From positions 1 through 42,116 of the forward strand of contig JACPNN010000003.1 in the NCBI GenBank assembly GCA_016185435.1: a stretch of 42,116 bases of DNA. Reading direction: 5' to 3'. This DNA is from Candidatus Aenigmatarchaeota archaeon. GTDB taxonomy: Archaea > Aenigmatarchaeota > Aenigmatarchaeia > QMZP01. This document shows positions 15,032 through 37,282 of the stretch, in pieces. Made by a program: the position numbers and the translations under genes. The notes below the pieces were generated by a model. That model did no database searches and was not told where the DNA came from. It worked only from the letters and a program-made list of their open reading frames with translations. The first letter of the stretch is position 1. Every line of letters begins with the position of its first letter.

Positions 15032-15505
15032 GCTGGGATGGCCGAGTGGTCTAAGGCGCAGGATTGCTAATCCTGTGGGCTCTGCCCGCGAGGGTTCAAA
15101 ACCACCCTCTTTTTCCAAAAAGAGGGTAATTGTAGACAGAAGCATATCAGCGGATATGCTTCATAACCAAATGTATCCAGAAAAAGGAGTTACCAATAAC
15201 GAACTCGAAATTATTGGTAATTTGTTTTCTTTGGATAGACCGGCAGCCTTTCAATAGGCTTTTCTTCCAAAGAAAGCCAGTGGGAGACAGAAGCATGCCA
15301 TTGGTGACGAAGCAGCTATGGGTTACGAAACAGGTCGCCACCTGTTTCAATATCCGATGCCTGCTTCAATATCCGATTATGCTTCCATACCCAAGCAAAG
15401 AAAGGAATTACAGATGCCGTATGCATTCAGAAGGTGTAGACCCGTAGAGGGGATACCTCCCCTCTGGGGAAAGAAAGGCTTGCGGTGAAAATCCCTCTCC
15501 CAGCG
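15032..15505 (+). tRNA. tRNA-Ser(GCU) with a 391-nt insertion in the T-loop
   Basis: The acceptor 5' strand GCTGGGA (15032-15038) pairs with TCCCAGC (15498-15504), followed by discriminator G15505 as expected for Ser. The anticodon stem-loop is CAGGA-TTGCTAA-TCCTG (GCU). A long variable arm (GGGC/GCCC) is present. The T-stem 5' strand GAGGG is at 15090-15094 and its 3' strand CCCTC at 15493-15497. Between T-loop nucleotides TTCAAA (15095-15100) and T15492 lie 391 extra nt. Removal gives GAGGG-TTCAAAT-CCCTC. A T-run after 15505 is a plausible terminator. The junction is ambiguous by a few A residues. Confidence 0.9.
15101..15491 (+). other. T-loop insertion (intron-like) of tRNA-Ser(GCU)
   Basis: The insertion is hairpin-rich: 10 bp at 15105-15126, 10 bp with an AGCG loop at 15139-15162, 10 bp at 15190-15220, and 9 bp with a CGCC loop at 15327-15348. 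Its ends can pair, CACC near 15103-15107 with GGTG at 15484-15487, next to the T-stem. The first 95 nt or so are homologous to the tRNA-Leu insertion. A second, diverged copy of the same module seems to start near 15284. There is no convincing ORF. Splicing is inferred, not shown. Confidence 0.75.
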
Positions 15506-15550
15506 TTTTTATATTTTCCAATGTCACAGCATCGCATCTTTCCTCTATCG

Positions 15551-16717
15551 TCATTTCCTATTTTTTATGATCCGGGCAATTTTTTTTGCCCTCTGCCTAT
15601 ACGTGAAAAGATGCCTTTTCCTGTAAAGTCTTTCAGCATTTTCATTCCCTTCTCCTGTAAAAGCCCTTTTAATTCCTTCGGCCAAAGCCTTTGGATTTCC
15701 TGGCGTCACAAAAACTGCATCCTTCTCGCCCAAAACCTCAGTCAGGCTTCCAACACTTGTCGCTACAATCGGCCTCCTGCAGCTCATATATTCAAAAAGT
15801 TTGAGAGGGGATGTAAATATCTCATTTCTTATATTCGAAGGATAAGGAAGCACAAGCACATCTGAAGCGGCAAGGTATAGTGCTACAAGTTTCTGACCAA
15901 CTCTACCCACAAGCTCTACGTTCCGGGCACCAAGCTTTTCTGCCATTCTGCCGAGAAAATCAATTTCCTCCTTACCTCCGCCCACAATATATACATCAAC
16001 ATCCGGGATAAATTTGGCACTCCTTATAAGAATATCAGCCCCCTTTTCCGCCAGCTTCAGGCCGGAAAATACTACAAGCCTGCTGCGTTTCTTTATTCCA
16101 AGAAGCTTCCTAGCATGCGACTTTTCAGGAAGATTGTCGAATATTGACGGCTCATACGCATCAGGCACTACATGGCAATGGAGGCCATATCTGTCTTCAA
16201 TCAGAGACTTGAGGCCCTTTGTGATAGTGATAAGAGATTCTGCCTTGTATAATGTCTTTTTTTCCAGATTTTCGGTAAGCTTTTCCAGACTGTTTGTTTC
16301 AAGATGCTCAAGAGAATGCAACTCCACTATAGGTTTTCTGATAAAGAGGCTTGCTATTGTGTCCCTTGAAAAGAAGATTGTGTCCCTTGAAAAGACATAG
16401 CAAAGCCTGACAAGAATCGAATACAGAATTCTGTCTGCAAGGAAAAATGTATTCTTTGCCCATCCCGGCAGATGGAAAAATGCCGCAATCCTGCCGAAGC
16501 TTGTTGCTGGAAGCCTTTTTACAATAATTCTGTTTTTCTGATAAGAGTCGAATTTATATTTCTTTGCCAAACTTCCTATTGTCAGCGGATAGACAATTTC
16601 AACCGGAAAGAAATTTCTCAGATATTTGCATGTATAAAATGTCTGTATCGAATGGGCCTGCTTGAAATCAGGTTCGCCTGCCGAAATGTACACAAGTCTT
16701 GATATATCCTGTTTCAT
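15551..16717 (-). CDS. GT4-type glycosyltransferase
   Basis: The 388-residue GT-B fold protein has the GT4 C-terminal pattern: VVFSGLKLAEKGADILI, VYIVGGGKEE, and SDVLVLPYPSN...TSPLKLFEYMSCRRPIVAT, where PLKLFE supplies the second Glu of the nucleotide-sugar site. It is predicted to transfer a sugar from an NDP donor in the cytosol or at the inner membrane face. A TTAATAA box about 25 nt before the ATG suggests a leaderless start. An in-frame 7-residue tandem duplication (FSRDTIF/FSRDTIA) is visible. It is next to the interrupted tRNA-Ser and opens the glycan island. Confidence 0.88.
   Translation of the reverse strand: MKQDISRLVYISAGEPDFKQAHSIQTFYTCKYLRNFFPVEIVYPLTIGSLAKKYKFDSYQKNRIIVKRLPATSFGRIAAFFHLPGWAKNTFFLADRILYSILVRLCYVFSRDTIFFSRDTIASLFIRKPIVELHSLEHLETNSLEKLTENLEKKTLYKAESLITITKGLKSLIEDRYGLHCHVVPDAYEPSIFDNLPEKSHARKLLGIKKRSRLVVFSGLKLAEKGADILIRSAKFIPDVDVYIVGGGKEEIDFLGRMAEKLGARNVELVGRVGQKLVALYLAASDVLVLPYPSNIRNEIFTSPLKLFEYMSCRRPIVATSVGSLTEVLGEKDAVFVTPGNPKALAEGIKRAFTGEGNENAERLYRKRHLFTYRQRAKKIARIIKNRK
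16356..16395 (+). repeat. 21-bp-period tandem duplication in a glycosyltransferase gene
   Basis: A 19-nt identical sequence starts at 16356 and again at 16377, period 21 nt, keeping frame and duplicating seven residues of the glycosyltransferase. The identity suggests it is recent. Confidence 0.85.
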
Positions 16718-16768
16718 ACGTTTTAAAGAGCAGTTTGTTATTAATAGGAAATTCAGGCAAATATATGT

Positions 16769-16921
16769 CTATAGACTTTGATTTTTTAGCTCGATTGACA
16801 TCCTCCCATAAACAACAACCATCCTCCTCTCCATGTTGTGCGCTATAGCCATTATCAGCACCTCTTTTGCCTGGCTCCAGAAGCATTTCGTGTAGAGGGT
16901 GTCCCCACACTTCCTCTTCAC
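16769..16921 (-). pseudogene. Transposase C-terminal remnant
   Basis: In the 400-nt gap between two glycosyltransferase genes, a 50-codon minus-strand frame reads VKRKCGDTLYTK, then WSQAKEVLIMAIAHN, then MERRMVVVYG, ending in TAG. Basic-Gly-Asp-x-Leu-Tyr-Thr-Lys followed by an amphipathic helix ending in HN is typical of DDE transposase tails. A TAG immediately precedes the fragment, so the gene is dead. It resembles the fragment at 2-130. Confidence 0.5.
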
Positions 16922-16944
16922 CTAAGGTGTGTCTACATCTTAGG
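16921..16944. repeat. Inverted repeat beside transposase remnant
   Basis: CCTAAG (16921-16926) is complementary to CTTAGG (16939-16944), and the stem can extend inward with TGT/ACA around a GTCT loop. It abuts the transposase remnant and may be part of an insertion-sequence end or a terminator. The rest of the gap (16945-17121) shows nothing recognisable. Confidence 0.4.
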
Positions 16945-17121
16945 AGGGCTCATGTTTATAGGATTTCTACAGAGCTAAAATTCCAAATAACATGATTCAT
17001 AAATATCATGTATTGCTGCCAACAGAAGCTGCTTTTATCATTTTAACTTTTCTATTTATCGATTTTTACAAAAAAGATTTTCCATAAATCCAAATGCTTG
17101 CAAATCCCGCAAAAGAGTACA

Positions 17122-18135
17122 CTAGCTGCCTTTCAAGATCTCTGAGAAGTATCCTATCATCTGTCTTGTCGTATGCCTCATTGAGTATTTCTGGACATGC
17201 CTCCTGCCGGCAGAGCCCATCTTTCTCCTCAGGCTCTGGTCTGTGATGAGCCTTTCAAGGCTTTCCTCCCATTGGGAAGGCGAGGTAGGCAGATAGCCAT
17301 GAATGCCATCGCCCACTATACTCGGTATTTCCCCGATCGGGGTGCATACTACTGGAAGGCCTGAGGCCATATACTCCAGCAATTTTGTGTGCATCCCTGC
17401 CTTTTCCAGGAAACTGCCCGGAGAAGGCAGCAGGGCAATATCCATTTCTTCCATCTCCTTAGGGACATCCGAACTGTCCAGCCACCCTGTAATCTTTACC
17501 GGTATCCCTCTTTTCCGGCATTCATCTGCCACTTCAGCATCTTCGCTCCCAACAATTTTCAGAAGCAAATGATGGCGTTTGCAGAGGCTTTGCAGGGTGT
17601 CAAGGATCATCATAAGATTTTTCTGCCACCTCCCCACCCAGCCGAGAACAACGGGCTTTTTGGCCGCTCTTGCCACAGGAGGGAAACGCCCTGTATCGAC
17701 AACAGCCGGCAGTATTTTCACATGCCTGCTGTGTTTTTTTGCCATTTCACAGAGCAGCCTGCTGGGAACAAGAGTCAGATGGCTTAATTCCACCATCTTC
17801 CTGAAATCTTCCTGAGCAGGCGTATAATCGTCAATGTGGAACACAATCTTTTTTCCAAACGCCTTTGCCAACTTGGCATAGAAGCGATGTATAAAGGAAA
17901 AGGTTTTCTGGAAGAATATTATGTCATATCTCCAGAAGACAAAGGGAAAAAGGAGAAGCCTGTCCTTGTTGCCTATCAATGGGTTGCGCCTTTCCTTTTC
18001 AATCAATATGCGGGCTTTTATGCCCTCTTTCCTGAGGGCCATCGCCCTCTCATAAACCTGGGTTCTTGTGCTTGCCTTGAAAGAATCCTGCGCCGGAAAG
18101 AACAGCACGCTGATTGCTTTTTTTTGATTTGACAT
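17122..18135 (-). CDS. GT4-type glycosyltransferase
   Basis: This 337-residue GT-B protein has VVLGWVGRWQKNLMMILDTL, LKIVGSEDAE, and the donor-site block IALLPSPGSFLEKAGMHTKL followed by LEYMASGLPVVCT. The N-terminal domain has the usual Rossmann start (ISVLFFPAQDSFKAST). The ATG at 18135 follows a GGTG Shine-Dalgarno by 6 nt; a GTG at 18144 is rejected. It is separated by 32 nt from the next glycosyltransferase gene on the same strand and is probably cotranscribed. Sugar specificity cannot be read from sequence. Confidence 0.88.
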   Translation of the reverse strand: MSNQKKAISVLFFPAQDSFKASTRTQVYERAMALRKEGIKARILIEKERRNPLIGNKDRLLLFPFVFWRYDIIFFQKTFSFIHRFYAKLAKAFGKKIVFHIDDYTPAQEDFRKMVELSHLTLVPSRLLCEMAKKHSRHVKILPAVVDTGRFPPVARAAKKPVVLGWVGRWQKNLMMILDTLQSLCKRHHLLLKIVGSEDAEVADECRKRGIPVKITGWLDSSDVPKEMEEMDIALLPSPGSFLEKAGMHTKLLEYMASGLPVVCTPIGEIPSIVGDGIHGYLPTSPSQWEESLERLITDQSLRRKMGSAGRRHVQKYSMRHTTRQMIGYFSEILKGS

Positions 18136-18167
18136 CAAAACCACCGGATTGAGATTTAGTGAAAGTG

Positions 18168-19244
18168 CTATCTGCCAGAGACTCTAACAGTCCTCTCAAG
18201 CTCCTTTTCCCATTTCTTTACCATAATTCTCCACTCATATTTCTTTTTGACAAGCTCATAGCCCTTTTTCCCCAGACTTTTTCTTAACTGTCCATCTGCC
18301 AACAGCCTTTCCAGTATTTTCCTCAAGGCCCTTTCATCTCCTGGCCGGAACAGGACGCCATTGGACCAGTTGTCAATAACCTCCGGAGCGCCGCCAACAG
18401 CGCTGGCAACAATCACTTTTTTCATGGCCATCGCCTCTATGACAACCGATGAAAAGCCCTCCTTGTATGACGGCAGGACAATAATGTCAACTGCGGCCAT
18501 ATACTCGGGCATTTTCTGGTACCTGACAAATCCTACAAATTCCACATCCAGGTTTCCGGCCAGCTCAAGCAATTTTCCCTTCTCTTCGCCATCGCCTACT
18601 ATAGCTGCCTTAAAGCTGCCCTTCAGAGAGCGAAGGGCAATCAGCAAATCTTCCACGCCCTTGCTCTTGTGGAGCCTGCCGAAGAAGCCTATAACCGGCT
18701 TGCTGTATTTTCTGAATGGCTTCGTCGCATAGTCGAAATGCCTCAAATCAACCCCGTGATGGAGAACAATGCCCTTGGTGTTTGTTGTAACAGTTTTTTT
18801 GACCCAGCTTGAAGAGTAAATTATGTAATCACAGAGGTTGAAGGCCACGGTTTTTATGAAGCCTCTTGAATCATTTCTTACGCTGCATATCAGAGGTATT
18901 CCGTGCAATTTTGCATGGAAAACAGCAGGGAATACAGTGGACCAGTCCCAGCAGACAATGACATCAGGCCTTTGTTTCAGGGAAAAGGACTGCAGGAATG
19001 CGCTCAGGAACCATGTGGCAAGCCTTAAAAGCGGAAGATCAATGAACCACGTCCTGTAAATCAGAATCCCGCCGCTTTCTATAACAGGCGATGAGCCTTT
19101 TATCTTTCTGGAAATCACGCTTATTCTGTGGCCCCTTTTTTTCAGGGCTTCGCAAAGCTTCGCAGGCGATGTTGCCAGATGTGATGCGTCTCCTGCATCC
19201 TCACTTTGGGATCTGAAATATGTGTTATAGAGCAGTATTTTCAT
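18168..19244 (-). CDS. GT4-type glycosyltransferase
   Basis: The 358-residue protein has the complete GT4 signature: VIGFFGRLHKSKGVEDLLIA, AAIVGDGEEKGKL, and DIIVLPSYKEGFSSVVIEAM, where E-G-F-x5-E is the nucleotide-sugar motif. ICSVRNDSRGF is in the acceptor domain. The start is the ATG at 19244, 6 nt after GGTG; the GTG at 19253 is the alternative. It is first in a two-gene unit with the gene at 17122-18135. Predicted role is assembly of a surface glycan. Confidence 0.92.
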   Translation of the reverse strand: MKILLYNTYFRSQSEDAGDASHLATSPAKLCEALKKRGHRISVISRKIKGSSPVIESGGILIYRTWFIDLPLLRLATWFLSAFLQSFSLKQRPDVIVCWDWSTVFPAVFHAKLHGIPLICSVRNDSRGFIKTVAFNLCDYIIYSSSWVKKTVTTNTKGIVLHHGVDLRHFDYATKPFRKYSKPVIGFFGRLHKSKGVEDLLIALRSLKGSFKAAIVGDGEEKGKLLELAGNLDVEFVGFVRYQKMPEYMAAVDIIVLPSYKEGFSSVVIEAMAMKKVIVASAVGGAPEVIDNWSNGVLFRPGDERALRKILERLLADGQLRKSLGKKGYELVKKKYEWRIMVKKWEKELERTVRVSGR

Positions 19245-19341
19245 CAGCGCCACCTATGCCATTATGCAATTACTTTTCTAAGCCTGAAAGGAATTAAAAG
19301 CTAAGGGGGCAGTACTTACATTCGGCAGAAGCAGGATTGTG

Positions 19342-20535
19342 ATGAGGATAATACATATCTACGCAAGGAAGCCCCATCCAAGGATCTGGGGGGAAAGGGT
19401 TGATGTCCGCTTTTGGAAGATGTCAGAATGGCTCCATAATAACGGTTTCGACGTTGCCGGCATAACAAAGGGCGAGAAAAGTGAAAGGAAATATTTTGAA
19501 GGAATAGAAACATTCAGAGTACCATCACGCGGAATTGCGGATTTTGCCCTGAAAGTTTCTTCCCTTCTGCTCAAGCTCGACAAGGAAAAAGGAATTGATA
19601 TTATACATGGCCACAGGCATTCAGGTGTGCTGCCAGCTTTGATTGCAAAGAAGCTGGGATTGAAATCTTCCGTCATCTTCGACTATCATGATCCATGGTC
19701 AGGGGAAAGCCATATGACTGAGCCAAACCTGTGGCAGAGACTGAAAACAGGCTTATTCAGACATCTGGAGGGCTTTATAGCCAGGAACTGCGACCACATT
19801 TTTGTTGTAACAGAATTCCAGGCGGATATTCTGGCAAAGAAGCATGGACTAAGCAAAAGCAAGTTCACGGTTGTCTATAACATGGCCAAGAAAGACGTAT
19901 TCAAGCCTTCCCTTTCCGATAAGGAGAAATTCGGTTTCACTGGCAAAAAAATTGTCTTTTTCGTTGGCTCCATTGTCCCATATTTCGGCATACACTTGCT
20001 TGTAGATGCTGCAAGCCTTGTTGTGAAGAAGGTTCCAAATGCCGTTTTTGTAATCAAAGGCGTTTTCCACGATAAGGATTATGGAGAGAAAATTATGAAG
20101 CAAATCAGGGATAATGGCCTTGCGAAACATTTCATAATCATAAAGGAATGGCTGGATGAGGAAAAGCTGGCTGCCATGATGGCTTCTGCTGACATAGCTG
20201 CCATAATGCATATGCCAACCCTTCTCACGGAGACAGCGAGCCCCGACAAGCTGTATGAATATCTTGCTTCCGGTCTGCCTGTTGTTTCGACAAACCTGAA
20301 GAACCTCAGGAAGTGGGTTTTGCCCAAAAAAACAGGCCTTCTGGCCCACCATAATCCAGAAGACATTGCTCAGGCGATAATAAAATTGCTTACTGATGAC
20401 GATCTCAGGAAGATGATTTCAAAAAACGCAAGGAGGCTTTGCGAAAATAAATGGAACTGGGATAACGAGATGGGGAAAGTAGAAAGCGTATATCAAAAGC
20501 TGGCCAAGGGGAATCATTCCAAAAGGCTCCTATAG
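19342..20535 (+). CDS. GT4-type glycosyltransferase
   Basis: A 397-residue GT-B protein. The start MRIIHIYARKPHPRIWGERV follows a GTG at 19339 that is less likely as a start. Seen: VIFDYHDPWSG, IVFFVGSIVPYFGIHLLVDA, VFVIKGVFHDKDYGEKI, and the donor site TETASPDKLYEYLASGLPVV, where SPDKLYEYLA replaces the more usual EGxxxxxxE. Divergent from the gene at 18168-19244. Its last 22 nt overlap the convergent glycosyltransferase gene. Confidence 0.9.
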   Translation: MRIIHIYARKPHPRIWGERVDVRFWKMSEWLHNNGFDVAGITKGEKSERKYFEGIETFRVPSRGIADFALKVSSLLLKLDKEKGIDIIHGHRHSGVLPALIAKKLGLKSSVIFDYHDPWSGESHMTEPNLWQRLKTGLFRHLEGFIARNCDHIFVVTEFQADILAKKHGLSKSKFTVVYNMAKKDVFKPSLSDKEKFGFTGKKIVFFVGSIVPYFGIHLLVDAASLVVKKVPNAVFVIKGVFHDKDYGEKIMKQIRDNGLAKHFIIIKEWLDEEKLAAMMASADIAAIMHMPTLLTETASPDKLYEYLASGLPVVSTNLKNLRKWVLPKKTGLLAHHNPEDIAQAIIKLLTDDDLRKMISKNARRLCENKWNWDNEMGKVESVYQKLAKGNHSKRLL

Positions 20536-21728
20536 ATCCCTTTAAGCCTTTTCGCATTGCTTTCTGCCTCAAAAAATTTTGCCATCTTCCTTATATTCTG
20601 TTCGCAGTTTTTCTTCATTCTTTCGCCCTTGATCATATCCTGAATGCCGCCGGCCAGGGCAGCTGCCGAAGGCTTCACCAATATTCCTGTCTGCCTGTCC
20701 CTGATCACCTCATTTGTGCCTCCTGTGTCGGTTGCAACCACGGCCTTCCCCAGGATGGAGCACTCAATCAGGACTCTACTCAGGGGTTCAGCCCTTACCG
20801 AAGGCAGCACCACTATGTCAAATTTCCTGTATATATCCTTCATTTGCTCATATTCCATGCGCCCCAAAAAAGTGACATTTTTTCCCAGCTTCTTTTTTCC
20901 CACGATTTCCTTGTACCTTTCAATGTCAGAATTCCCGACAACATAGAGCTTAATGCCAGGCACATTTCTTTTCACAATATCCAGAGAATCAAGAATCATG
21001 TCAAAGCCCTTGGATTTTGCAAGCCTCCCCACATAGAGGAGGCTGTTTTTCTCTGTTTTTATTTTTCTCCCTCCTGCCACAAAATCCCTTTCTATTACAT
21101 TGTACACCGTCTCTATCCCTTCCCTTCCCATTTTCAAATCTGTTATAACCTCTTGCTCCATGTACCTGCTTACTGGGATTATCCTGTCAGCTTTTCTGTA
21201 CAGGGAGCGCCCAAGAAGATAGACCGGCCAATAAAGGCAGCAGTATACCGTATAGAACAGATATCTCAATAGCCCGTATCTCTGGAAATATTCCAGCTTG
21301 GCCGAATAACTGAAATATGCTATATCCCGGACTGTTATAACTGATTTTTTTCCAAAGAGTTTTGCAGCGGCTATGCCTGCCGGAAAGAAAGGGCTGCTCT
21401 GGATATGAATTATATCTATCCTAAAGCCTGATACAATGATGGCAGTCAGAAAGAAAAGATAGAGATTGAAAAATACTGTATTGAATACCGGGAAAGCGAC
21501 TTTTATACTGGCCGGAAACGGAAATCTTATGACCACCAAATTTTTCCCTTCCCTTTTCAGTGAAAACCTTGCACAGCCGAAGTTTGGCGTGAGTATAAAA
21601 ACCCTCTCGCCCATTCCGGCAATTGTTTCCGCATATATCCGGGAGCTGATTTCTGCGCCCCCGATCTCATGGGGCCTGAAAAACGCTATGAAGTACAATA
21701 TGTTCATAAAGTTGAATCCCATTTCCAT
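20514..21728 (-). CDS. GT4-type glycosyltransferase
   Basis: A 404-residue protein. Seen: IAFFRPHEIGGAEISSRIYA at the acceptor side, SLLYVGRLAKSKGFDMILDS, LYVVGNSDIERYKEIV, and the donor motif EPLSRVLIECSILGKAVVAT (E-x7-E). A hydrophobic stretch at about residues 85-105 suggests monotopic membrane contact. Three Met are possible starts (21728, 21722, 21707). The 3' end overlaps the convergent neighbour, a compact arrangement. Confidence 0.92.
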   Translation of the reverse strand: MEMGFNFMNILYFIAFFRPHEIGGAEISSRIYAETIAGMGERVFILTPNFGCARFSLKREGKNLVVIRFPFPASIKVAFPVFNTVFFNLYLFFLTAIIVSGFRIDIIHIQSSPFFPAGIAAAKLFGKKSVITVRDIAYFSYSAKLEYFQRYGLLRYLFYTVYCCLYWPVYLLGRSLYRKADRIIPVSRYMEQEVITDLKMGREGIETVYNVIERDFVAGGRKIKTEKNSLLYVGRLAKSKGFDMILDSLDIVKRNVPGIKLYVVGNSDIERYKEIVGKKKLGKNVTFLGRMEYEQMKDIYRKFDIVVLPSVRAEPLSRVLIECSILGKAVVATDTGGTNEVIRDRQTGILVKPSAAALAGGIQDMIKGERMKKNCEQNIRKMAKFFEAESNAKRLKGIYRSLLE

Positions 21729-21795
21729 TTAACCAAATCCAGTCGTTTCATTAATCGTATGTATCTGAATGATATAAATTCCTGCGGCGATATTA

Positions 21796-22659
21796 ATGAT
21801 GTTACATTTCCTAAAGAGAGCTGCAAGAAATTCATATAGGCTTCTTTCACGTGGAAAGGCCATGCTTTTTATGGTCTATATAGTGTTTACATTTCAGGCA
21901 GCTATGAACAGTTTCACAAGACAGAGGACGTCATACATAAGATTGTTTCAATATGAAATAATGTGCCCAAAATTCAGGGATTTTTACGATTTCTTTACTG
22001 AAACATTTATTGAAGGTGAGTATTTTTTTGTGGCAGGCAATAACGACCCAAAAATCATAGATTGTGGCGGAGATTTTGGCATGTCGGCCATATATTTCAA
22101 ATGCCTTTATCCTGAAGCGACATTACTGATTTTTGAGCCGAGCAGCAGCAGGTATTCCTGCCTGAAGAGGAATATTAAGGAAAATGATATTGCACACACA
22201 AAGGCTTTGAATTGCGCACTGTCTTCAAAGAATGGCTACATATATTTCGACATTATGAAAAGCAGGGTTAGAGGACAAAATAGAATGAGAACTGAAAGGG
22301 TAAGATGCTGCAGACTTTCTGATTATATCAATGATGTGATCGACTTGTTGAAAGTTGATATAGAGGGCTCAGAATATGATGTTATGAAAGAAGTTCACGC
22401 TTCAGGCAAACTGACGAATGTGAAAAAAATGTTCCTTGAGTATCATATTTACACAGAGGCGGATGTTTCAAGAATGCGAGAAATAACAGAGCTGATAAAA
22501 AATAACGGATTCAGGATATATGCGAGGAGAAAAAAATACCATTACGTGATATACGCTGTCAATCAATTATTCAGCAACAAATTAAATAAAGAGCATATGC
22601 TTACCTGCTCAGCCAATATTGTTGAAGATAACAGACTTTTTTCCGAAGCCAATTCATGA
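21796..22659 (+). CDS. FkbM-family SAM-dependent methyltransferase
   Basis: The 287-residue protein has the FkbM pattern: SAM motif I IIDCGGDFGMSAIYF (about 87-101), the acidic end of the next strand LLIFEPSSSRYSC, and DLLKVDIEGSEYDVMKEV. FkbM enzymes O-methylate sugars or other small molecules. In a glycan island a sugar hydroxyl is the likely target. The N-terminal 45 residues are basic and hydrophobic. A TATAAA at 21773-21778 is 20-23 nt before the alternative ATGs (21796, 21799). Confidence 0.9.
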   Translation: MMLHFLKRAARNSYRLLSRGKAMLFMVYIVFTFQAAMNSFTRQRTSYIRLFQYEIMCPKFRDFYDFFTETFIEGEYFFVAGNNDPKIIDCGGDFGMSAIYFKCLYPEATLLIFEPSSSRYSCLKRNIKENDIAHTKALNCALSSKNGYIYFDIMKSRVRGQNRMRTERVRCCRLSDYINDVIDLLKVDIEGSEYDVMKEVHASGKLTNVKKMFLEYHIYTEADVSRMREITELIKNNGFRIYARRKKYHYVIYAVNQLFSNKLNKEHMLTCSANIVEDNRLFSEANS

Positions 22660-22670
22660 ATCTTATTCCG

Positions 22671-23951: not shown

Positions 23952-24099
23952 GATCACATCACTGACAATGCATATCCCAATTATGCTGACGATATATTAA
24001 GGATTCAAGAGAGATTAAAAAGAAATTGCAGAATACACTGAGCATCTTCACTATCCGAAAATTGGAGTATCATCCTAACTATCCTCCAGTCAGGCTGCC

Positions 24100-24975: not shown

Positions 24976-25010
24976 GTCAAACCACGTATTTATACATTTC
25001 TGTTACCTTA

Positions 25011-25017
25011 TTTTATA
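25011..25017 (+). promoter_or_regulatory. TATA box of the GT2 glycosyltransferase gene
   Basis: TTTTATA, centred about 25.5 nt before the ATG at 25040, indicates a leaderless transcript. On the other strand the same box lies about 40 nt before the divergent reductase start. Confidence 0.65.
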
Positions 25018-25039
25018 CCCCTTTCTATATTACTGAATT

Positions 25040-26023: not shown

Positions 26024-26061
26024 CTACTTCAGAAATTGAACATGAAAAAATGCTCTAAAGC

Positions 26062-26069: not shown

Positions 26070-26089
26070 CTAACAAGCAAATGTATAGC

Positions 26090-26776: not shown

Positions 26777-26784
26777 TGACCGAT

Positions 26785-28023: not shown

Positions 28024-28187
28024 ATTATCCCTTCCTTATGCAATTCAATATATATATCTGTATCGCAGGATTGTAATTGTCTGTGGCCTCTCCTATCTTT
28101 ATTGTCTCCACGAGCAATACAAATAACTGAATATCCGCTCTCACAGCATTCTTATTGGCATCATTATTAAAATTTTGCACCTTATTC

Positions 28188-29351: not shown

Positions 29352-29383
29352 AGAAAGACTATGGAAAAAAGCAATTTAACCTT

Positions 29384-30268: not shown

Positions 30269-30321
30269 AAATTATGAAAGGAGGCAAAGGCCTTCAAAAT
30301 GTCAAATTGTTTTATGGGCTG

Positions 30322-31191
30322 CTAACATGTCGCACCGTTTAAAGCCGTCAATGTTTTTGTTCCCGTATATGTGCCTGGAAGAGTTCCCAAAGGAACAATT
30401 AACGATGATGTCATAGTTGCTGTGCCTCCAACTGCAATATTCACATTAGTGCATGTGCTGCTTGCCGGAACTCCGGCTATCGTTTCTGTAACATCGGAAG
30501 CTGGTATTGTGTCAGGTGGAGATGTTGTTCTTGTCAAATCAGTAACAGAATCAGCTATGTCCATCTCTGTGTTGCAAGTGTTTGTTATAGTAACCTCAGT
30601 GCCTGATGCTGTTGTGCCAGGTGCAAGCTGGCCGAATGTTATTGTTGAGGAACTCAGGGATACTCCTGTGCACGTTCCATAAGTCAGATTGTTTGTATCC
30701 ATGCCCTCTTCATTAGCGACATCCTTCGCAGTTACCGTAATGCTGTAATTTAAGCTAGGGTCTGTGGAAGCAAGCAAGAAAGTTCCTGAATAGAACTTGC
30801 ACAGGACACCGAAGTCCGGAGAAGCTCCCAAGCCACAGTGTTCAGCATGTCCTGTGCCATCACCCAGTGTTTCTTGCTCCTTTACTGTTCCATTCGGAAA
30901 CTGCACAACTGCTTTTACTGTGCTGTCGACAATGTCTTCTTTGCCATTATTATCACAGACAATAGCACATTTTCTTACTGTTACCGGTTGCCCCGGAGTA
31001 GGATTGATTGATGTAATGTTGTTTGTCTCATCAGTCTCCCACTTCATAACTGTAGGAGCAGTGTTATTGACATCGGCATTCAGCGTAACATCATTGGCCA
31101 CTGTAATCACTGCAATGCTGGAAATAAGCAGCAGGCCTGCCATTGATAGCAGCCCTATCGAACCTTTTAGGTTGTTTTCCCCTCCTATCAT
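30322..31191 (-). CDS. Secreted surface protein (paralogue of 31301-32293)
   Basis: A 289-residue exported protein with an N-terminal membrane/signal helix (about 11-32). It shares with the upstream neighbour CAIVCDNNGKEDIVDSTV (there CIVACDTDGKDDIKEVQA), YGTCTGVSLSSSTITFGQL, TNTCNTEMDIADS and VPLGTLPGTYTG. At least two beta-sandwich domains and paired cysteines are indicated. AT-rich TATA elements (31220-31243) precede it. Probably part of the cell envelope or a filament; no pilin cleavage motif is convincing. Confidence 0.75.
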   Translation of the reverse strand: MIGGENNLKGSIGLLSMAGLLLISSIAVITVANDVTLNADVNNTAPTVMKWETDETNNITSINPTPGQPVTVRKCAIVCDNNGKEDIVDSTVKAVVQFPNGTVKEQETLGDGTGHAEHCGLGASPDFGVLCKFYSGTFLLASTDPSLNYSITVTAKDVANEEGMDTNNLTYGTCTGVSLSSSTITFGQLAPGTTASGTEVTITNTCNTEMDIADSVTDLTRTTSPPDTIPASDVTETIAGVPASSTCTNVNIAVGGTATMTSSLIVPLGTLPGTYTGTKTLTALNGATC

Positions 31192-31300
31192 TTAGATCTG
31201 AAGTATTATTATTTTGCCGTTATATAAAGATTTATAAACGAATATATTTTGGATACTTATTGATAATTTTTCAGTGATGATTTTCTATAAAGACCGCGCT

Positions 31301-32293
31301 TCATATGCATGCAGTTGCCGTAAATGTCATGTTTCCCGTATAGGTGTCAGGCAGCGTCCCCAAAGGGACGGAAAGCGCTGCTTCTGCTGAAACTGCTGAG
31401 CCCGGCTGGAGATTGACGTCTGCGCAGCTGCTTGTCATATTATTGATAGAAGCAGTTACTTTCCCTGCTTCTATTGTATCGCCTTTCTGCATGCCGGCCA
31501 TCGCAGTATGGCTTCTTGCAACGTCAATTTCCGTGTTGCATATGTTCCTTATTTCTATATTTGCACTAGCCTTTGTCTCTCCCGGCTTCACCTGGCCAAA
31601 ATCTATCGCAGTGGAATTAATTTCGATCCCAACACATCCGCCATAAGCGAACAGGTTTTCCATAAAGCCTATTGAGTCATTATTGTCCGTGACCATGGCC
31701 AGTACCGAATAGTTTCCCGGCCCATCGCTATAGTTCATTGCAAAGCTCCCGGCGTAAAGGCTGCAGAAGCCTTTGCTGAAAAAATCAGGGTCAAGCCCCT
31801 GGACATCGCAGTCATTAAACTCCTGGCTGCCATTCTCAGCCCTTTTCAGGAGGTCAGGAGTTGCTTCATGTTCTTTTGAGAAATTATCAGGAGGGCATTC
31901 TGCGAGGATGCAGGCCAAGCACTCGGTGCTGTTCATGCCAGCTGCGCATGCTGTTTCACACGCGCTTCCAAGCGAGACAGAAGAATTCTTGCAGGCGGCA
32001 AATGGCGGCGATAGAACCCATGCCTGCACCTCCTTTATATCATCTTTCCCGTCAGTGTCGCAGGCTACTATGCACTTCATCATCAGCCTTTCTTCCCCGG
32101 GCTTAGGCATTACAGGCGGAGTGATAGCCGCAAGATTCCTCTGGCCTGAATCGTCAAGATAGAATTCCCATTTCTTCTCTACAAAAGGCGCTGCCCCGCT
32201 TCCATTGTCGCTGTATGTGTTGATTGAAATGCCTGACACTATAACTATCAGCGTGAGAAACAGCATTCCAAAACCTGCTCTGTTTTTCAGCAC
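31301..32293 (-). CDS. Secreted surface protein (paralogue of 30322-31191)
   Basis: A 330-residue exported protein with signal helix FGMLFLTLIVIVSGISI. It is colinear with its downstream paralogue but has about 40 extra residues around 85-140, rich in cysteine (SACETACAAGMNSTECLACI). The start codon is GTG at 32293 with GGTGT 3 nt before it; a TTTATTAAA box lies about 30 nt upstream. Many sequons (NSS, NST, NFS, NGS, NYS) suggest N-glycosylation, linking it to the glycan island. Confidence 0.75.
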   Translation of the reverse strand: MLKNRAGFGMLFLTLIVIVSGISINTYSDNGSGAAPFVEKKWEFYLDDSGQRNLAAITPPVMPKPGEERLMMKCIVACDTDGKDDIKEVQAWVLSPPFAACKNSSVSLGSACETACAAGMNSTECLACILAECPPDNFSKEHEATPDLLKRAENGSQEFNDCDVQGLDPDFFSKGFCSLYAGSFAMNYSDGPGNYSVLAMVTDNNDSIGFMENLFAYGGCVGIEINSTAIDFGQVKPGETKASANIEIRNICNTEIDVARSHTAMAGMQKGDTIEAGKVTASINNMTSSCADVNLQPGSAVSAEAALSVPLGTLPDTYTGNMTFTATACI

Positions 32294-32379
32294 ATGACAC
32301 CTGTAGAGAATTGTTTCGCTGTTTAATAAAGTTTCAAATAAACATCAAAAGTATATCAAAAGTTATTTCCTGCCAGATT

Positions 32380-32613
32380 TTATGGCTTTGGAGCCAAGAG
32401 GAAAACAAGCAAAGCTGCCATGGAGACAGCAATCACCATATAGAGCATTTCTTTGCTGTTCGAAAAGCCAAAAGGTATGGGCCCTATGAAGCCGCCTATT
32501 CCAACCGAAACCTTCCCTTCCGTTTTTGAAGCCTGCATCATAGAGCCAATGAGAACCAAAAATATGCCTATAAAAATCAGCAGAATGCCGGCCAGCACAA
32601 AAGTTTCAGACAT
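32380..32613 (-). CDS. DUF131 (TIGR00304) small membrane protein
   Basis: A 77-residue protein with two helices (about 6-27 and 55-73) flanking the conserved GGFIGPIPFGFSNSKEM loop, the mark of archaeal DUF131. Function unknown. A TTTTTAATC box centred about 25 nt upstream of the ATG implies a leaderless message. Confidence 0.82.
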   Translation of the reverse strand: MSETFVLAGILLIFIGIFLVLIGSMMQASKTEGKVSVGIGGFIGPIPFGFSNSKEMLYMVIAVSMAALLVFLLAPKP

Positions 32614-32699
32614 GGTATAATGTTGCAGGCCTGATTAAAAAATCTCAGCAGAAAGGAAAAGAAGTATATAAAAGCTTCCGTCCACTATCATTTATGCTT

Positions 32700-32903
32700 G
32701 CGGGGGTAGCCAAGCGGCCAAAGGCACTGGCCTAAGGAGCCAGTCGGTTAGTCCGTTCGCAGGTTCGAAACCGCCCTCTTTTTCCAAAAAGAGTGCAATG
32801 GTAGATAGAAGCATATCAGCGGATATGCTTCATACCCAAACGTGCCCAGAAAAAGGGATTACATTTACCAACCACAAAATAAGCGAAAATCCTGCCTCCC
32901 GCA
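32700..32903 (+). tRNA. tRNA-Leu with anticodon AAG and a 120-nt insertion in the T-loop
   Basis: The acceptor GCGGGGG (32700-32706) pairs with CTCCCGC (32896-32902) with one G-U; discriminator A32903 fits Leu. The anticodon stem-loop CTGGC-CTAAGGA-GCCAG reads AAG. A long variable arm is present. The T-stem 5' strand GCAGG precedes TTCGAA (32764-32769) and the 3' strand CCTGC follows T32890. Removing 32770-32889 restores TTCGAAT. A TATATAAAAG element lies about 30 nt upstream. A34 in the anticodon is unusual for archaea. Confidence 0.88.
32770..32889 (+). other. T-loop insertion (intron-like) of tRNA-Leu
   Basis: The 120-nt insertion is homologous to the first part of the tRNA-Ser(GCU) insertion: the same CTCTTTTT/AAAAAGAG hairpin, an identical 24-nt hairpin with AGCG loop (32808-32831) and the same CCAGAAAAAGG block. 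Its ends pair as CGC (32772-32774) with GCG (32883-32885); the Ser copy has CAC with GTG at the same place, a compensatory change. The junction is ambiguous by two A residues. Confidence 0.75.
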
Positions 32904-32971
32904 TCTCAAGCATGAGTAGATAAACAAATATAGGCAGTATCCAGAAGACCTTCCACTTTCTAACGGCCCAA

Positions 32972-33541
32972 TCAAAAAGCCATTCCCACAGAGGATATCA
33001 GCAGGATGCCTATGAAGTTGAAGACATATGAATAAAGCAGGAACTTTCTTGGGTTGAAGTGTATGCCGCCCAGCAGGGCCGATGCAAGCTCGTCAGGAAG
33101 AGGAGAGGCTATGATGAAGCCCGCTATCAAGGGAATGAAAGGCTTCCATCTTCTGATCCTGTGGCCGTCAAGCCTTAGGCCAAGGTCCTTTATCAGGAAC
33201 ATGATGTCTCTGGAAAGCTTGTCCCTGACGAACCTGAAAATAAGGTAATCGGAAATCATGGCCCCTGACGCGCCAATAGCGGCTATCAGCAGAGGATTGA
33301 GGGAGTGGCCAAGGAGGAGGAGAAGAGCGATAGCAACAGGTGTGCTGAAGCCGTAGGCGAACATGGCCCCCACAAAAAAGGTTCCCACATATCCCAGCCC
33401 CCCCAATCCGTCTATGAATCTTTGCACAAAATCGGCCTGAAAGAGGTAATAGGCAACAGCAGCGCTGGCAAGCAGAAGAAGTATGTTGTGGTAGCGCCAC
33501 TCATATCTCTTCAATCCTTTCAGAAGGTGAAGGACAGTCAT
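32972..33541 (-). CDS. DedA/SNARE-associated-like membrane protein
   Basis: A 189-residue protein with about five hydrophobic helices. It has the family pattern YVGTFFVGAMFAYGFSTPVA, GASGAMISDYLIFRFVRDKL and IAGFIIASPLPDELASALLG, a re-entrant-loop arrangement with Pro-Leu-Pro-Asp-Glu. Members act in membrane lipid scrambling or as transporters. The open frame reaches 33640, but that part is inside the tRNA-Ser(CGA) gene, so the ATG at 33541 is the start. Confidence 0.8.
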   Translation of the reverse strand: MTVLHLLKGLKRYEWRYHNILLLLASAAVAYYLFQADFVQRFIDGLGGLGYVGTFFVGAMFAYGFSTPVAIALLLLLGHSLNPLLIAAIGASGAMISDYLIFRFVRDKLSRDIMFLIKDLGLRLDGHRIRRWKPFIPLIAGFIIASPLPDELASALLGGIHFNPRKFLLYSYVFNFIGILLISSVGMAF

Positions 33542-33585
33542 ATTGGAAATTATGGGCCTTGCCTGTCTAAATACCTGAAAATGAG

Positions 33586-33709
33586 CGCCAGGGGCAGGAT
33601 TCGAACCTGCGAGCCACGAGGGCACTTGTTTTCGAGACAAGCGCGTTACCGATGCGGCAGACGTTGTTCAATTTCACATGGCAACAAATGTCGATTCCGC
33701 CACCCTGGC
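33586..33709 (-). tRNA. tRNA-Ser(CGA) with a 42-nt insertion in the D-loop
   Basis: On the minus strand the acceptor GCCAGGG (33709-33703) pairs with CCCTGGC (33593-33587), discriminator G33586. The anticodon stem-loop CTTGT-CTCGAAA-ACAAG gives CGA. The variable arm and the T-arm GCAGG-TTCGAAT-CCTGC are intact. The D-arm is interrupted: GGCGGAATCG is followed by 42 extra nt ending in ATCG before GTAACGCG. Removal gives a normal D-arm. The ATCG direct repeat leaves the exact junction ambiguous. Confidence 0.88.
33650..33691 (-). other. D-loop insertion (intron-like) of tRNA-Ser(CGA)
   Basis: The 42-nt insertion is bounded by ATCG direct repeats. Its GTTGCC can pair with the downstream exon GGTAAC, and the following ATGT with GCAT just before the junction, giving a 10-bp helix with one bulged C. 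This differs from the strict 3-nt/4-bp/3-nt bulge-helix-bulge. No sequence similarity to the T-loop insertions was seen. Confidence 0.65.
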
Positions 33710-33782
33710 CTGATACATTTTTCCCTTTCTCTAAGAAAATAACATCACCATATTATATATACCAAATATTCAAATCTTTCTT

Positions 33783-34706
33783 ATGCAACCTGCATGCATC
33801 TGCGGCAAGCCCTCCGTGTACAAGAAAGGCAATATTGTTCTTTGCAGGAAGCACTTCATCCAAAATATAGAAAGAAGGGTAAAAAGGATAGTAGGCAAGC
33901 ATAGCATGCTTGGCCGAGGGGATAGGATAGCCTTTGCACTGTCCGGCGGGGCAGATTCGGGCGTTGCAACATGCATATTGCATTCAATCCTTCGGCCAAG
34001 GAAAGACATAAAATATTTTGCCATTACCCTTGATGAAGGCACAAAACATGAAAAGAGGCTGGAAAAGGCCAAAAAATTATGCAAGAGGCTGGAAATTGAG
34101 CATCACATTTTTTCCGGAAAAAAGGAGTTCAGGATTGATACTGCTTTTCATTCAAAGAAAATGGAAAACAAGCTTGCGGCCTCAACATATGGCGGCATTC
34201 TCAAAAAATACATGCTGAACAGAATTGCCAGGCAGCTTCATGCAACAAAGGTCTGCGTCGGCCACAACCTGGATGATGAGGCGCAGACAATAATAATGAA
34301 TTTTCTTCGAGGCGATTCCCTCAAAGCGTCAAGGCTCGGCTTCATAACAAACAGCAGCACAAAAAAAGAGAGAGGGGAGCTTTTCATACCGAGGATAAAA
34401 CCGCTGAGGGAAATATCGCAGGAAGAGACAAAACTCTACGCCTTGCTTATGGGCCTGCCCGCAGAAAAAAGAAATTTGGACAAAGAGGGGCTAAGACACT
34501 CTGTTGCCAAATTCCTAAGAAAACTGGAAGCTCGGCATCCAGGAACAAAAGCAAATGTGCTTCACACTTACGAGAAAATGCTTCCCCATATAAGAAAATC
34601 GACAGCCGAAAGGGAAGGGCCCATAATCCTCTGCAGAATATGCGGCGAACCAAGCAGCCAGGAGACATGCAGAACATGCGAGCTTTGGATGGCCTCAGCG
34701 CAATGA
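33783..34706 (+). CDS. TtuA/Ncs6-family PP-loop ATPase lacking Fe-S cysteines
   Basis: The 307-residue protein has the TtuA layout: an N-terminal zinc knuckle (Cys5, Cys7, Cys21, His24), the PP-loop SGGADS (54-59), CVGHNLDDEAQTIIMNFLRG and a C-terminal zinc ribbon (CxxC at 284/287 and 296/299). TtuA thiolates U/T54 of the tRNA T-loop; Ncs6 thiolates U34. Both use three cysteines, two in PCTYCG and one in ECPY. Here the first aligns as ASTYGG (Ser134, Gly137) and the third as Arg230, so no cluster can be bound in the usual way. Leaderless start: TATATA is centred 25 nt before the ATG. Function may have diverged. Confidence 0.85.
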   Translation: MQPACICGKPSVYKKGNIVLCRKHFIQNIERRVKRIVGKHSMLGRGDRIAFALSGGADSGVATCILHSILRPRKDIKYFAITLDEGTKHEKRLEKAKKLCKRLEIEHHIFSGKKEFRIDTAFHSKKMENKLAASTYGGILKKYMLNRIARQLHATKVCVGHNLDDEAQTIIMNFLRGDSLKASRLGFITNSSTKKERGELFIPRIKPLREISQEETKLYALLMGLPAEKRNLDKEGLRHSVAKFLRKLEARHPGTKANVLHTYEKMLPHIRKSTAEREGPIILCRICGEPSSQETCRTCELWMASAQ

Positions 34707-35438
34707 TCATTTCTGGTTTTCAGCCCCTTTCTTTTCCCTCATACTATGTGTCACTTTTCCAGCCTTTTTGGCAGCTTCCGGCTTCTGTTCAGTCTGCTTT
34801 TTTCCAGTTTTCTTCGTTTCTGTCCTGGCCAAATCCTTCCTGCCTTTCAAAGCTCCGGTTTCAATAATATATTTCTTGGCGGTCTCGAAATGCTCAGGAA
34901 GATTTTCCGGCTGTATGGCATTTTTCAGGTAGGAAGAAAACATGCTCGTATATAAGCCGCTGTCCTTTCTTTTAACATGCTCTGCATATGATGCGATGTG
35001 CCTGCCGGAGATTCTGTCAGACTCGGGCAAAACAGCATCCTTGCAGCTTATCTCCAGACCAGAGTCTATAGCACCTTTAAGCGCTGCAAACAGCCTGTTG
35101 CCTTTGGTAGCCCGGGCCAGACCCATGTCAAAGACAGCCTCTTTAATTCCTGCCTGTTTCGCCCTTATGCCTGCAAGGAAGCCGGTCAAATAGCTGGCAG
35201 GCAGATTTCCCCCATTCACCTTCCATCCATATGCCTTCAACTCCTTGCTGTCCGCGCTGACAAGCGCGGCGTCGCCCTCTATTCTGTGCTGAACAAAACT
35301 GCAGGTTATGTTATTGAGGCTCTTTCTGGCAACAAATCTCAGCCTGCGGCTTTTTATAAGCGCAAGCCTGAGGCGGAAGTCTGTTTTCCCTTCCCTTCTC
35401 CTCCTGTGCTGCAGGCGTATTGCTATTTTCCTTCCCAT
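34707..35438 (-). CDS. rpl18: Large-subunit ribosomal protein uL18
   Basis: A 243-residue uL18, which binds 5S rRNA. Seen: RRRREGKTDFRLRLALIKSR, RFVARKSLNNITC, AYGWKVNGGNLPASYLTGFL and AVFDMGLARATKGNRLFAAL. The last 45 residues are a Lys/Glu/Ala-rich extension beyond the usual archaeal length, probably disordered. It follows eL19 by 3 nt; the stop directly abuts that of the convergent TtuA-family gene. Confidence 0.95.
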   Translation of the reverse strand: MGRKIAIRLQHRRRREGKTDFRLRLALIKSRRLRFVARKSLNNITCSFVQHRIEGDAALVSADSKELKAYGWKVNGGNLPASYLTGFLAGIRAKQAGIKEAVFDMGLARATKGNRLFAALKGAIDSGLEISCKDAVLPESDRISGRHIASYAEHVKRKDSGLYTSMFSSYLKNAIQPENLPEHFETAKKYIIETGALKGRKDLARTETKKTGKKQTEQKPEAAKKAGKVTHSMREKKGAENQK

Positions 35439-35441
35439 AAA

Positions 35442-35915
35442 TCATCCCCTCACCTTCAGATCGCCTTTGGAGGGCTTTCGCATCAGGTTGTTCTCCTTCA
35501 GGTAAAATATCATATGCCTTTTGTTTCTGAATGCATTGCCTTTGGCCATCATGTACATCTTCTTGTAAACGGGTTTCTCTATCATATCGCTATCCAGCAG
35601 GCCCTTAAGCAGTTTCCTTAAAGCCCTTATCTTCCTTATCCAGACATCTTTTTTCCCTTTCCTGGAGCCGCTTTTCCCTTTCCTGCTCCCGGCGCCTTTC
35701 CTCAAGCTTTTCTTCTTCTGCTTCAGAAGCCTGTTAGCATGCCATCTGCTTGTCCCTTTTTTATACTCCTTTGTTATGAGCCCCTTTTTTATCAATTTCC
35801 TCACATCTTCCCTTGTGATGGCTTCATCCACTTCCTTGTCATGGGCAAGCCTTACCCTGCTTCTTCCCGCCTTCAGCAGCATTGCCGCAATTCTTTTCTG
35901 GTATTTGAGGTCCAT
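35442..35915 (-). CDS. rpl19e: Large-subunit ribosomal protein eL19
   Basis: A 157-residue eL19 with MDLKYQKRIAAMLLKAGRSR, VRKLIKKGLI, the basic SRWHANRLLKQKKKSLRKGA linker and WIRKIRALRKLLKGLLDSD. Length and order are normal. It starts 2 nt after uS2, so the three ribosomal genes are translationally coupled. Having uS2 before eL19-uL18 is not the usual archaeal arrangement, where eL19-uL18 sit in the spc-like cluster. Confidence 0.96.
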   Translation of the reverse strand: MDLKYQKRIAAMLLKAGRSRVRLAHDKEVDEAITREDVRKLIKKGLITKEYKKGTSRWHANRLLKQKKKSLRKGAGSRKGKSGSRKGKKDVWIRKIRALRKLLKGLLDSDMIEKPVYKKMYMMAKGNAFRNKRHMIFYLKENNLMRKPSKGDLKVRG

Positions 35916-35917
35916 AA

Positions 35918-36661
35918 CTAGTCCTTATCAGCTTTGCCCTTTTTTTTGTCCTTGCCTGGCTTCTTCACTTTTTCGTCTGCGCTTTTCCGTTTTTTCGCTT
36001 TCTTTCCTTCAGCCTGTGCTGCATGCGTCTCCTCATCAATCCCTATATCACGCTCCTGAACCTTCTCTTTCTTTTCGACAGGCTCAGTATCGCCAAAATC
36101 CTTCAGGGTAAGAGAGAAGTCGCTGTCTTCCTTGATTTCATCCCTGTTTTTGAGGACTTCTCTTGCCAGCAGCCAGAAAATCAAGGCCAGGCTTTTTTTG
36201 CCGTTGTTGTTTGCAGGGATAACGAAATCCACATATTTTACGCTGTTGAAGGTGTTGCAGATGCCCACTATCGGTATTCTTTTTGCGCTGGCCTCCTTCA
36301 CGGCCTGCTCGTCAATCACGGGGTCTGCGACAATAACAACATCCGGCTCACAAAACTCCTTGAAGGAGGGGTTTGTAAGCATTCCCGGAGGAAAGCGCCC
36401 GATTATGGCCTTTGCGCCAGCTGCCTTCGCGAATGCATCGATGGCCTGGAAGCTGTTCTCCTTCCTCCCGACGACAATGATATTCTTGAACTTGGAAAGG
36501 AAGAAGCCTGCCACTTTAATCCTTTCATCTATCCTCTTCAGGTTAAACATGCCAAGGCCATCCTCCCTGATCTTATATACGAAGTGCTTCATGTAGGGCG
36601 TACATGACTTCATGCCTATATAAATTCCAGATGTCAGGTATGTGTTCTTGTCTGCCAGCAT
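35918..36661 (-). CDS. rps2: Small-subunit ribosomal protein uS2
   Basis: A 247-residue uS2. Seen: YLTSGIYIGMKSCTPYMKHF, IIVVGRKENSFQAIDAFAKA, RFPPGMLTNPSFKEFCEPDV, VGICNTFNSVKYVDFVIPAN and NNGKKSLALIFWLLAREVLK. About 55 C-terminal residues form a Lys/Glu-rich extension. A GGTG lies 4 nt before the ATG, and a TTTAAATATA box about 45 nt upstream (36700-36710), so this transcript has a short leader. Confidence 0.96.
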   Translation of the reverse strand: MLADKNTYLTSGIYIGMKSCTPYMKHFVYKIREDGLGMFNLKRIDERIKVAGFFLSKFKNIIVVGRKENSFQAIDAFAKAAGAKAIIGRFPPGMLTNPSFKEFCEPDVVIVADPVIDEQAVKEASAKRIPIVGICNTFNSVKYVDFVIPANNNGKKSLALIFWLLAREVLKNRDEIKEDSDFSLTLKDFGDTEPVEKKEKVQERDIGIDEETHAAQAEGKKAKKRKSADEKVKKPGKDKKKGKADKD

Positions 36662-36706
36662 AGTGCACCTATTGCGTATAGAGTAAGTATTTCTCTGTTA
36701 CTATAT

Positions 36707-37009
36707 TTAAATCCCTGCATGGTCAGGTGTATATAACACTGTTATATCAGAATTGCACTCAGGGCAGTGTGTTAAGCCAAGCTTCGCCCTCCTGTGGATG
36801 TCCTTTGGCACAGGTCTGTTATTGGGCTTATGATCCTCTGGAGGACCGAACTTCTTTGGTTCAGATTCCTGTTTCTGCGGTTTCCAGATATAGGAACGTA
36901 TTTCCTTTATCTGGCTTTCAAGCTCCTCTATGCGCTTTTTCAGCTCTTCGTGCTCCTTTTTGAGGGCTATATTTTCCTTGAGAAGAGGGATGCATGACTC
37001 GCAGGTCAT
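36707..37009 (-). pseudogene. Truncated transposase N-terminus (IS66-like coiled coil plus zinc ribbon)
   Basis: A 100-residue frame with one CxxC (ESCIP region), a long heptad coiled coil (LKENIALKKEHEELKKRIEE), then PKKFGPPEDHKPNNRPVPKD and a zinc ribbon LTHCPECNSDI. This order is the N-terminus of IS66/ISNCY-type transposases, in which the catalytic DDE domain should follow. Here the frame stops shortly after the ribbon and the uS2 gene begins on the same strand. Either a remnant or a domesticated small DNA-binding protein. Confidence 0.55.
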
Positions 37010-37126
37010 GCTATATATTTATGGGCTCGCTGTGATTTCTGCTTAACGGATAGTTTTATAAGGAATTAACGTTCTATGGGTGAGTAGATACTCATATTAA
37101 CCTCCCCTTCAACATAAAATGTCAGT

Positions 37127-37282
37127 GGGCCCGTAGTTTAACGGCAGAATTCCGGCTTCGGGAGCCGGTGATCTGAGTTGCTAGCTTTTCTTTCAGAAAG
37201 AAAAGCTACCGTACAAAAAGAAACGAATACAGATGCGGTTGACAATATGTCAAGCACAGGAATTCGATTCTCAGCGGGCCCA
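37127..37282 (+). tRNA. tRNA-Pro(CGG) with an 85-nt insertion in the T-loop
   Basis: The acceptor GGGCCCG (37127-37133) pairs with CGGGCCC (37275-37281), A73 at 37282. The anticodon stem-loop CCGGC-TTCGGGA-GCCGG gives CGG. The T-stem 5' strand CTGAG (37173-37177) and 3' strand CTCAG (37270-37274) are separated by 92 nt. Removing 85 nt leaves CTGAG-TTCGATT-CTCAG. It ends 6 nt before the stop codon of the convergent trmY gene. Confidence 0.88.
37178..37262 (+). other. T-loop insertion (intron-like) of tRNA-Pro(CGG)
   Basis: The 85-nt insertion has a 13-bp perfect inverted repeat (37182-37194 with 37196-37208) and a second small hairpin, TTGAC/GTCAA. TGCT at its start pairs with AGCA near its end. 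The block GAATACAGATGC is similar to GAATTACAGATGCC in the Ser(GCU) insertion, the only sign of kinship. The junction could also be 37179-37263 or 37180-37264. Confidence 0.72.

Follow-up and report, generated by a model that had tools for sequence, protein, structure and literature searches.

Bulge-helix-bulge introns, mostly from one dispersed repeat family, probably interrupt the tRNA genes of a Candidatus Aenigmatarchaeota archaeon

A 42,116 nt stretch of DNA from a Candidatus Aenigmatarchaeota archaeon (assembly GCA_016185435.1, contig JACPNN010000003.1, positions 1 to 42,116) was analysed and is referred to here as the window. It contains four tRNA genes, each interrupted by an insert. 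The inserts were interpreted, with a probability of roughly 0.88, as archaeal bulge-helix-bulge (BHB) introns which would be removed by the splicing endonuclease EndA and the ligase RtcB and which are mostly copies of one repeat family spread through the genome. An initial annotation, made from the sequence alone, had placed all four interruptions outside the anticodon loop. All four were present, with lengths of 391, 120, 85, and 43 nt. The first three lengths agree with that annotation while the tRNA-Ser(CGA) insert, given there as 42 nt, measured 43 nt with one base ambiguous. Removal of the inserts restores the tRNAs, as had been stated, with acceptor and T stems complete in each of the four spliced sequences. 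The 3' half of the T-arm of Ser(GCU), Leu(AAG), and Pro(CGG) resumes only 391, 120, and 85 nt downstream, respectively. The condition is also genome-wide, as had been suspected, with T-loop introns in more than 20 tRNA genes. What the initial annotation could not see is that a single dispersed repeat family, present outside tRNA genes too, accounts for most of the inserts.

The inserts had also been described as lacking the strict BHB motif and as perhaps being removed by another mechanism. Neither point stood. All four window introns hold both splice sites in 3-nt bulges around a 4-bp central helix. Each strand of a BHB reads HHHH-BB|B. In the T-loop introns T54-T55-C56-R57 pairs with YGAA near the intron 3' end, giving a 4-bp helix TTCR/YGAA with 3-nt AA|N bulges, and at 59/60 the T-stem forms a perfect outer helix. 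The central helix had 4/4 pairs in 19 and 3/4 pairs in 4 of the genome's own 24 T-loop introns. Nucleotide 57 was compared with the facing intron base in 29 T-loop introns (24 own and 5 from relatives). A57 was accompanied by T in 13/14 cases and G57 by C in 9/15 or by wobble T in 2/15 (Fisher p = 2.2e-5 for R57/Y covariation). The exon sequence TTCAA is not repeated in the TGAA of TTCA tRNAs, which argues for compensation and hence selection for pairing. For the same reason the T-loop introns are not taken to have arisen from duplication of a TTCGAA palindrome at the target site. BHBs formed through palindromic 4-mers at direct-repeat sites outside tRNAs were dropped as uninformative, such palindromes being expected by chance. 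As BHB is the usual signal of the archaeal splicing enzyme no new removal mechanism is needed. Positions 20/21, 53/54, and 59/60 are on the list of archaeal intron positions (PMC4090602).

Standard searches recovered the genes in part. ARAGORN reported Ser(GCU) and Leu(AAG) alone, as uninterrupted genes, because the first intron bases ACC imitate the T-arm 3' strand (GGTTCGAA|ACC). The Rfam search of the window matched the four tRNAs in part. In a scan for interrupted T-arms, which required matching T- and acceptor stems, every match that had 4/4 helix pairs proved to be a real tRNA gene, and most of those with 3/4 were background.

The splicing endonuclease and RtcB, for which the initial annotation had proposed a search, were both found in the genome. 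The single EndA gene encodes a three-unit single chain of 402 aa. Residues 18-402 of 402 match the ARMAN-2 epsilon2 EndA 4fz2 end to end (E 1.7e-92), and the relatives with 54-59% identity to it come from Candidatus Aenigmatarchaeota. Epsilon2 enzymes cleave non-canonical BHBs (PMC4033280) and their structure has been described (PMC12397907). An RNA 3'-terminal phosphate cyclase gene is located in the window at 6919-7968 (TIGR03399, above cut-off). The three-unit, epsilon2-like EndA would cleave the pre-tRNA at its two bulges, after which RtcB would join the exons.

The rtcB gene (genome contig C9) is itself interrupted, by a 30-nt insert (L028:2746-2775, minus strand) that lies between MPDGH and WGYGFPIGG and includes an in-frame TAA. 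The conserved PDGH-xGYGFPIGG motif is continuous at this site in solved RtcB. With GGCC AT|A and GGCT AA|T at its ends and a hairpin between them, the insert is a candidate mRNA BHB intron. RtcB, the ligase completing splicing, may thus itself need splicing. An archaeal mRNA BHB intron is known from cbf5 (PMC2738675). Just upstream of the rtcB start, and overlapping it, lies an open reading frame of 297 aa (L028:2901-3794, minus strand) which by eye is LAGLIDADG homing-endonuclease-like.

The repeat family was searched for with R1, a covariance model of its common core, and 48 copies were found genome-wide at E <= 0.01. They fill more than 20 T-loops, with further copies in some anticodon and D-loops, in both the large-subunit (L142) and small-subunit (L143) rRNA genes, and at intergenic sites between protein genes. 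The core is about 50 nt, the common intron 80-86 nt, and composites reach 391 nt. Introns of unrelated tRNAs (Ser, Leu, Ala, Arg) are 84-92% identical over long stretches. All identified tRNA-loop copies carry the hairpin on the tRNA sense strand. In some family copies the far end carries another unit, built alike but inverted. Direct repeats of 14-42 nt border several of the non-loop copies, the maximum for chance flank pairs being 16, and these repeats often duplicate a gene start or tRNA end. The introns of Ser(CGA) and Gln have no core, nor do several anticodon introns. The tRNA model gave 13 tRNAs above cut-off among 26 matches on the genome. At least 6 were read as intact and many as having T-loop, anticodon-loop, or D-loop inserts; this census is partial, covering the searches and selected stretches of the genome. 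A third repeat, CCTTTT-CCGTG...AAAAAGCGTTCACGGAAAAGG, was seen in several genera, where it lies in D-loops or anticodon loops (L140, L141, L153, L163).

Each family copy consists of a pyrimidine-purine hairpin (e.g., CCC-TTCTTTTCC..GGG), a short second stem, and then a purine tract. The tract equals the parallel complement of the pyrimidine arm and thereby mirrors the purine arm of the hairpin. Arm and tract pairs include TCTTTTTCC/AGAAAAAGG, TTCTTTTCC/AAGAAAAGG, TTTCTTTCC/AAAGAAAGG, and TTTTCTTCC/AAAAGAAGG. An in-register match was found in 50/63 hairpins with a nearby tract, compared to 8.9 (maximum 21) over 20,000 permutations. Asymmetric tracts were mirror in 32/41 cases and direct in 0. 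GG after the tract accompanies CC in the loop (29/30 vs. 2/20, p = 2e-10). Seven classes agree in hairpin/tract register, in other genera too, although the copies are related and the events are not independent. The hairpin and mirror tract are arranged as would be expected of a triple-stranded H-type pseudoknot, a fold which the RNA or the DNA may adopt. As a nucleic-acid motif, the mirror-tract structure may be new.

The features of the four window genes are listed in Table 1. The Ser(GCU) intron is a composite of nested hairpins and two family elements, and long stretches of it share 88-92% identity with introns of Ala, Leu, Arg, and other tRNAs. A second nested-palindrome set, GACAGAAGCAT...ATGCTTCATAACCAAACG and GACGAAACAG...CTGTTTCAATATCCGATT, lies within it at 15286-15395 and also at L012, L024, L109, and L137; its stems change in step across the copies. 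Leu(AAG) and Ser(GCU) introns share 88% identity across 93 nt. The Pro(CGG) intron matches R1 at E = 1.7e-4 and has a good inner helix, TGCT/AGCA. The AAG anticodon of tRNA-Leu carries A34, which is unusual in archaeal tRNAs. Leu GAG, TAG, and CAG were found among the stretches inspected of a sister genome, G024.

Table 1. Coordinates of the interrupted tRNA genes in the window and of elements within their introns (vertical bar, splice site)
Feature	Position	Strand	Remarks
tRNA-Ser(GCU) gene	15032-15505	+	intron 15101-15491, 391 nt
tRNA-Ser(GCU) 5' exon	15032-15100	+	acceptor GCTGGGA pairs with TCCCAGC at 15498-15504
tRNA-Ser(GCU) T-loop intron (59/60), 391 nt	15101-15491	+	BHB TTCA AA|A ... 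TGAA AA|T
tRNA-Ser(GCU) 3' exon	15492-15505	+	
Family hairpin, Ser(GCU) intron (pyrimidine arm - loop - purine arm)	15105-15126	+	
Nested palindromic element GTAGACAGAAGCAT...ATGCTTCATAACCAAATG, Ser(GCU) intron	15132-15173	+	near-identical block in Leu intron (32801-32842) and Arg(GCG) intron
Mirror purine tract AGAAAAAGG + AGTTAC, Ser(GCU) intron	15179-15193	+	parallel complement of hairpin's TCTTTTTCC
Second, nested family element, Ser(GCU) intron	15257-15485	+	matches T-loop introns of loci L017, L024, L121, L125, L137
tRNA-Leu(AAG) gene	32700-32903	+	intron 32770-32889, 120 nt
tRNA-Leu(AAG) 5' exon	32700-32769	+	
tRNA-Leu(AAG) T-loop intron (59/60), 120 nt	32770-32889	+	BHB TTCG AA|A ... 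CGAA AA|T
tRNA-Leu(AAG) 3' exon	32890-32903	+	
Family hairpin, Leu(AAG) intron	32774-32793	+	
Mirror purine tract AGAAAAAGG + GATTAC, Leu(AAG) intron	32848-32862	+	
tRNA-Ser(CGA) gene	33709-33586	-	D-loop intron 33694-33652, 43 nt
tRNA-Ser(CGA) 5' exon	33695-33709	-	
tRNA-Ser(CGA) D-loop intron, 43 nt	33652-33694	-	BHB GCGG AA|T ... CCGC AT|C
tRNA-Ser(CGA) 3' exon	33586-33651	-	
tRNA-Pro(CGG) gene	37127-37282	+	intron 37178-37262, 85 nt
tRNA-Pro(CGG) 5' exon	37127-37177	+	
tRNA-Pro(CGG) T-arm intron (53/54), 85 nt, family member	37178-37262	+	BHB TCTG AG|T with CAGG AA|T
tRNA-Pro(CGG) 3' exon	37263-37282	+	
Family hairpin, Pro(CGG) intron	37184-37206	+	
Mirror purine tract AAAAGAAAC + GAATAC, Pro(CGG) intron	37216-37230	+	

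Model R1 matched 5/41 genomes of the order at E <= 0.001 and 6/156 genomes of the phylum at E <= 1e-4, the genome itself counted in both. Among the matches in relatives were tRNA-Ser T-loop introns from other genera, as well as one intergenic copy that has a direct repeat of 24 nt. In genome G112 two copies (L162, L164) stand directly after the apparent stop codon of a protein gene. The sister genome G024 is element-free and 47 tRNAs were found in it, compared to 12, 13, and 6 in the element-bearing G022, G025, and G001. Completeness (88% for G024; 88, 92, and 71% for the others, respectively) explains little of this gap. Spliced Ser(GCU) aligned to its intact G024 orthologue at 87% over 79 nt and spliced Ser(CGA) at 81% over 81 nt, both uninterrupted across the junction. 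The two sites are therefore empty in the sister, and intron gain in the lineage of the present genome is the simpler reading.

The family is probably mobile. Copies would land in tRNA loops, and those capable of forming a BHB would survive because EndA and RtcB remove them. Movement by reverse transcriptase or of IS200/IS605 type was rejected since neither RVT_1 (reverse transcriptase) nor Y1_Tnp (Y1 transposase) was found in the genome. The genome has two tyrosine-recombinase genes and one Cas1, and nothing ties them to the element. Two exact core patterns were absent from IMG/VR contigs, which were searched with phage vectors in mind.

Several points weigh against the interpretation as spread BHB introns. 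The lack of RVT_1 and Y1_Tnp is one. The long direct repeats seen at non-loop copies are missing from the T-loop copies, the central helix is short of a pair in the four own introns mentioned above and has 2/4 pairs in another (L114), and many copies have a weak inner helix h' (0-4 of 4 pairs). The assembly is fragmented (23 contigs) with a completeness of 95%, and the low tRNA counts of the relatives may come partly from incompleteness (71-92%).

Three other explanations were considered. Independent ordinary tRNA introns could have been invaded later by shared hairpins acting as short repeats. The nested insertions within introns, as in the 391 nt Ser intron, and the introns that lack the core agree with this. 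It is nevertheless unlikely, as the minimal 80-86 nt T-loop introns are mostly family core (several are exactly 85 nt), homology reaches the 5' boundary with Leu and Ser introns aligning from base 1, and empty sites exist in the sister genome. A small self-excising ribozyme formed by the conserved hairpin and mirror tract is very improbable. Its core is structured and conserved across genera, and the sense orientation in all identified tRNA loops would suit it. Against this, the BHB is present and compensated, EndA and RtcB are encoded, and no group I or group II intron was matched by Rfam in the window even at E <= 5. Intergenic copies need no splicing, and the Ser(CGA) D-loop intron has a BHB though it is without the core.

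It is hardly credible that the interrupted genes are dead copies or assembly artefacts, despite the long repetitive inserts and the number of contigs. No intact duplicates of the four tRNAs were found in the 95%-complete genome, and Ser(GCU) is required for AGY codons. The same condition occurs in other genera and families. Stems remain perfect and two spliced forms match intact sister orthologues, in keeping with the initial description of functional-looking genes with intron-like inserts.

BHB introns removed by EndA and RtcB remain the preferred reading. A wider proposal, held at somewhat less than even odds, is that the family is an archaeal introner. This would be a non-autonomous mobile element of Aenigmatarchaeota, with conserved hairpins and a mirror-repeat third strand (triple-helix pseudoknot) as its ends, whose insertion into tRNA or rRNA genes makes EndA-spliced introns. 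Ligase supply may be tied to the splicing load in the host, since rtcB has a 30-nt, stop-containing insert of BHB form. Near-identical copies in tRNAs, rRNAs, and intergenic DNA, some of them with direct repeats, together with empty sister sites make intron gain in archaeal tRNAs directly testable. Annotation of such genomes calls for care, since many of their tRNAs are missed or misplaced by standard tRNA finders.

Transposed BHB introns are already known from Thermoproteales (Fujishima et al. 2010, as cited in PMC4090602 and PMC4033280), and the present case is a new variant of this known kind. In both, similar introns occur in different tRNA species. Thermoproteales have an (alpha-beta)2 EndA whereas the enzyme here is epsilon2-like and from another phylum. 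The introns here are concentrated at T-loop position 59/60 and hold a structured core that occurs outside tRNA genes as well, there with direct repeats. ARMAN (Micrarchaeota) likewise have a three-unit epsilon2 endonuclease, and their tRNAs are interrupted by introns at varied positions (Fujishima et al. 2011, as cited in PMC4033280). A dispersed intron-forming repeat family of the present kind did not appear for ARMAN in the portions of the literature consulted. Eukaryotic introners and elements resembling miniature inverted-repeat transposable elements (MITEs) are also short, multi-copy, and intron-forming where they land, with flanking direct repeats at some copies and inverted-repeat-like ends. 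The present elements differ from these in that BHB and EndA would take the place of the spliceosome. Their direct repeats are variable in length (14-42 nt) and absent at tRNA-loop copies, and no partner transposase was identified. In Caldiarchaeum a 1.8-kb recombinase-coding mobile element at one tRNA is credited with tRNA intron gain (PMC3293823). There too intron gain is tied to a mobile element, but the elements here are short and non-coding and occupy dozens of sites.

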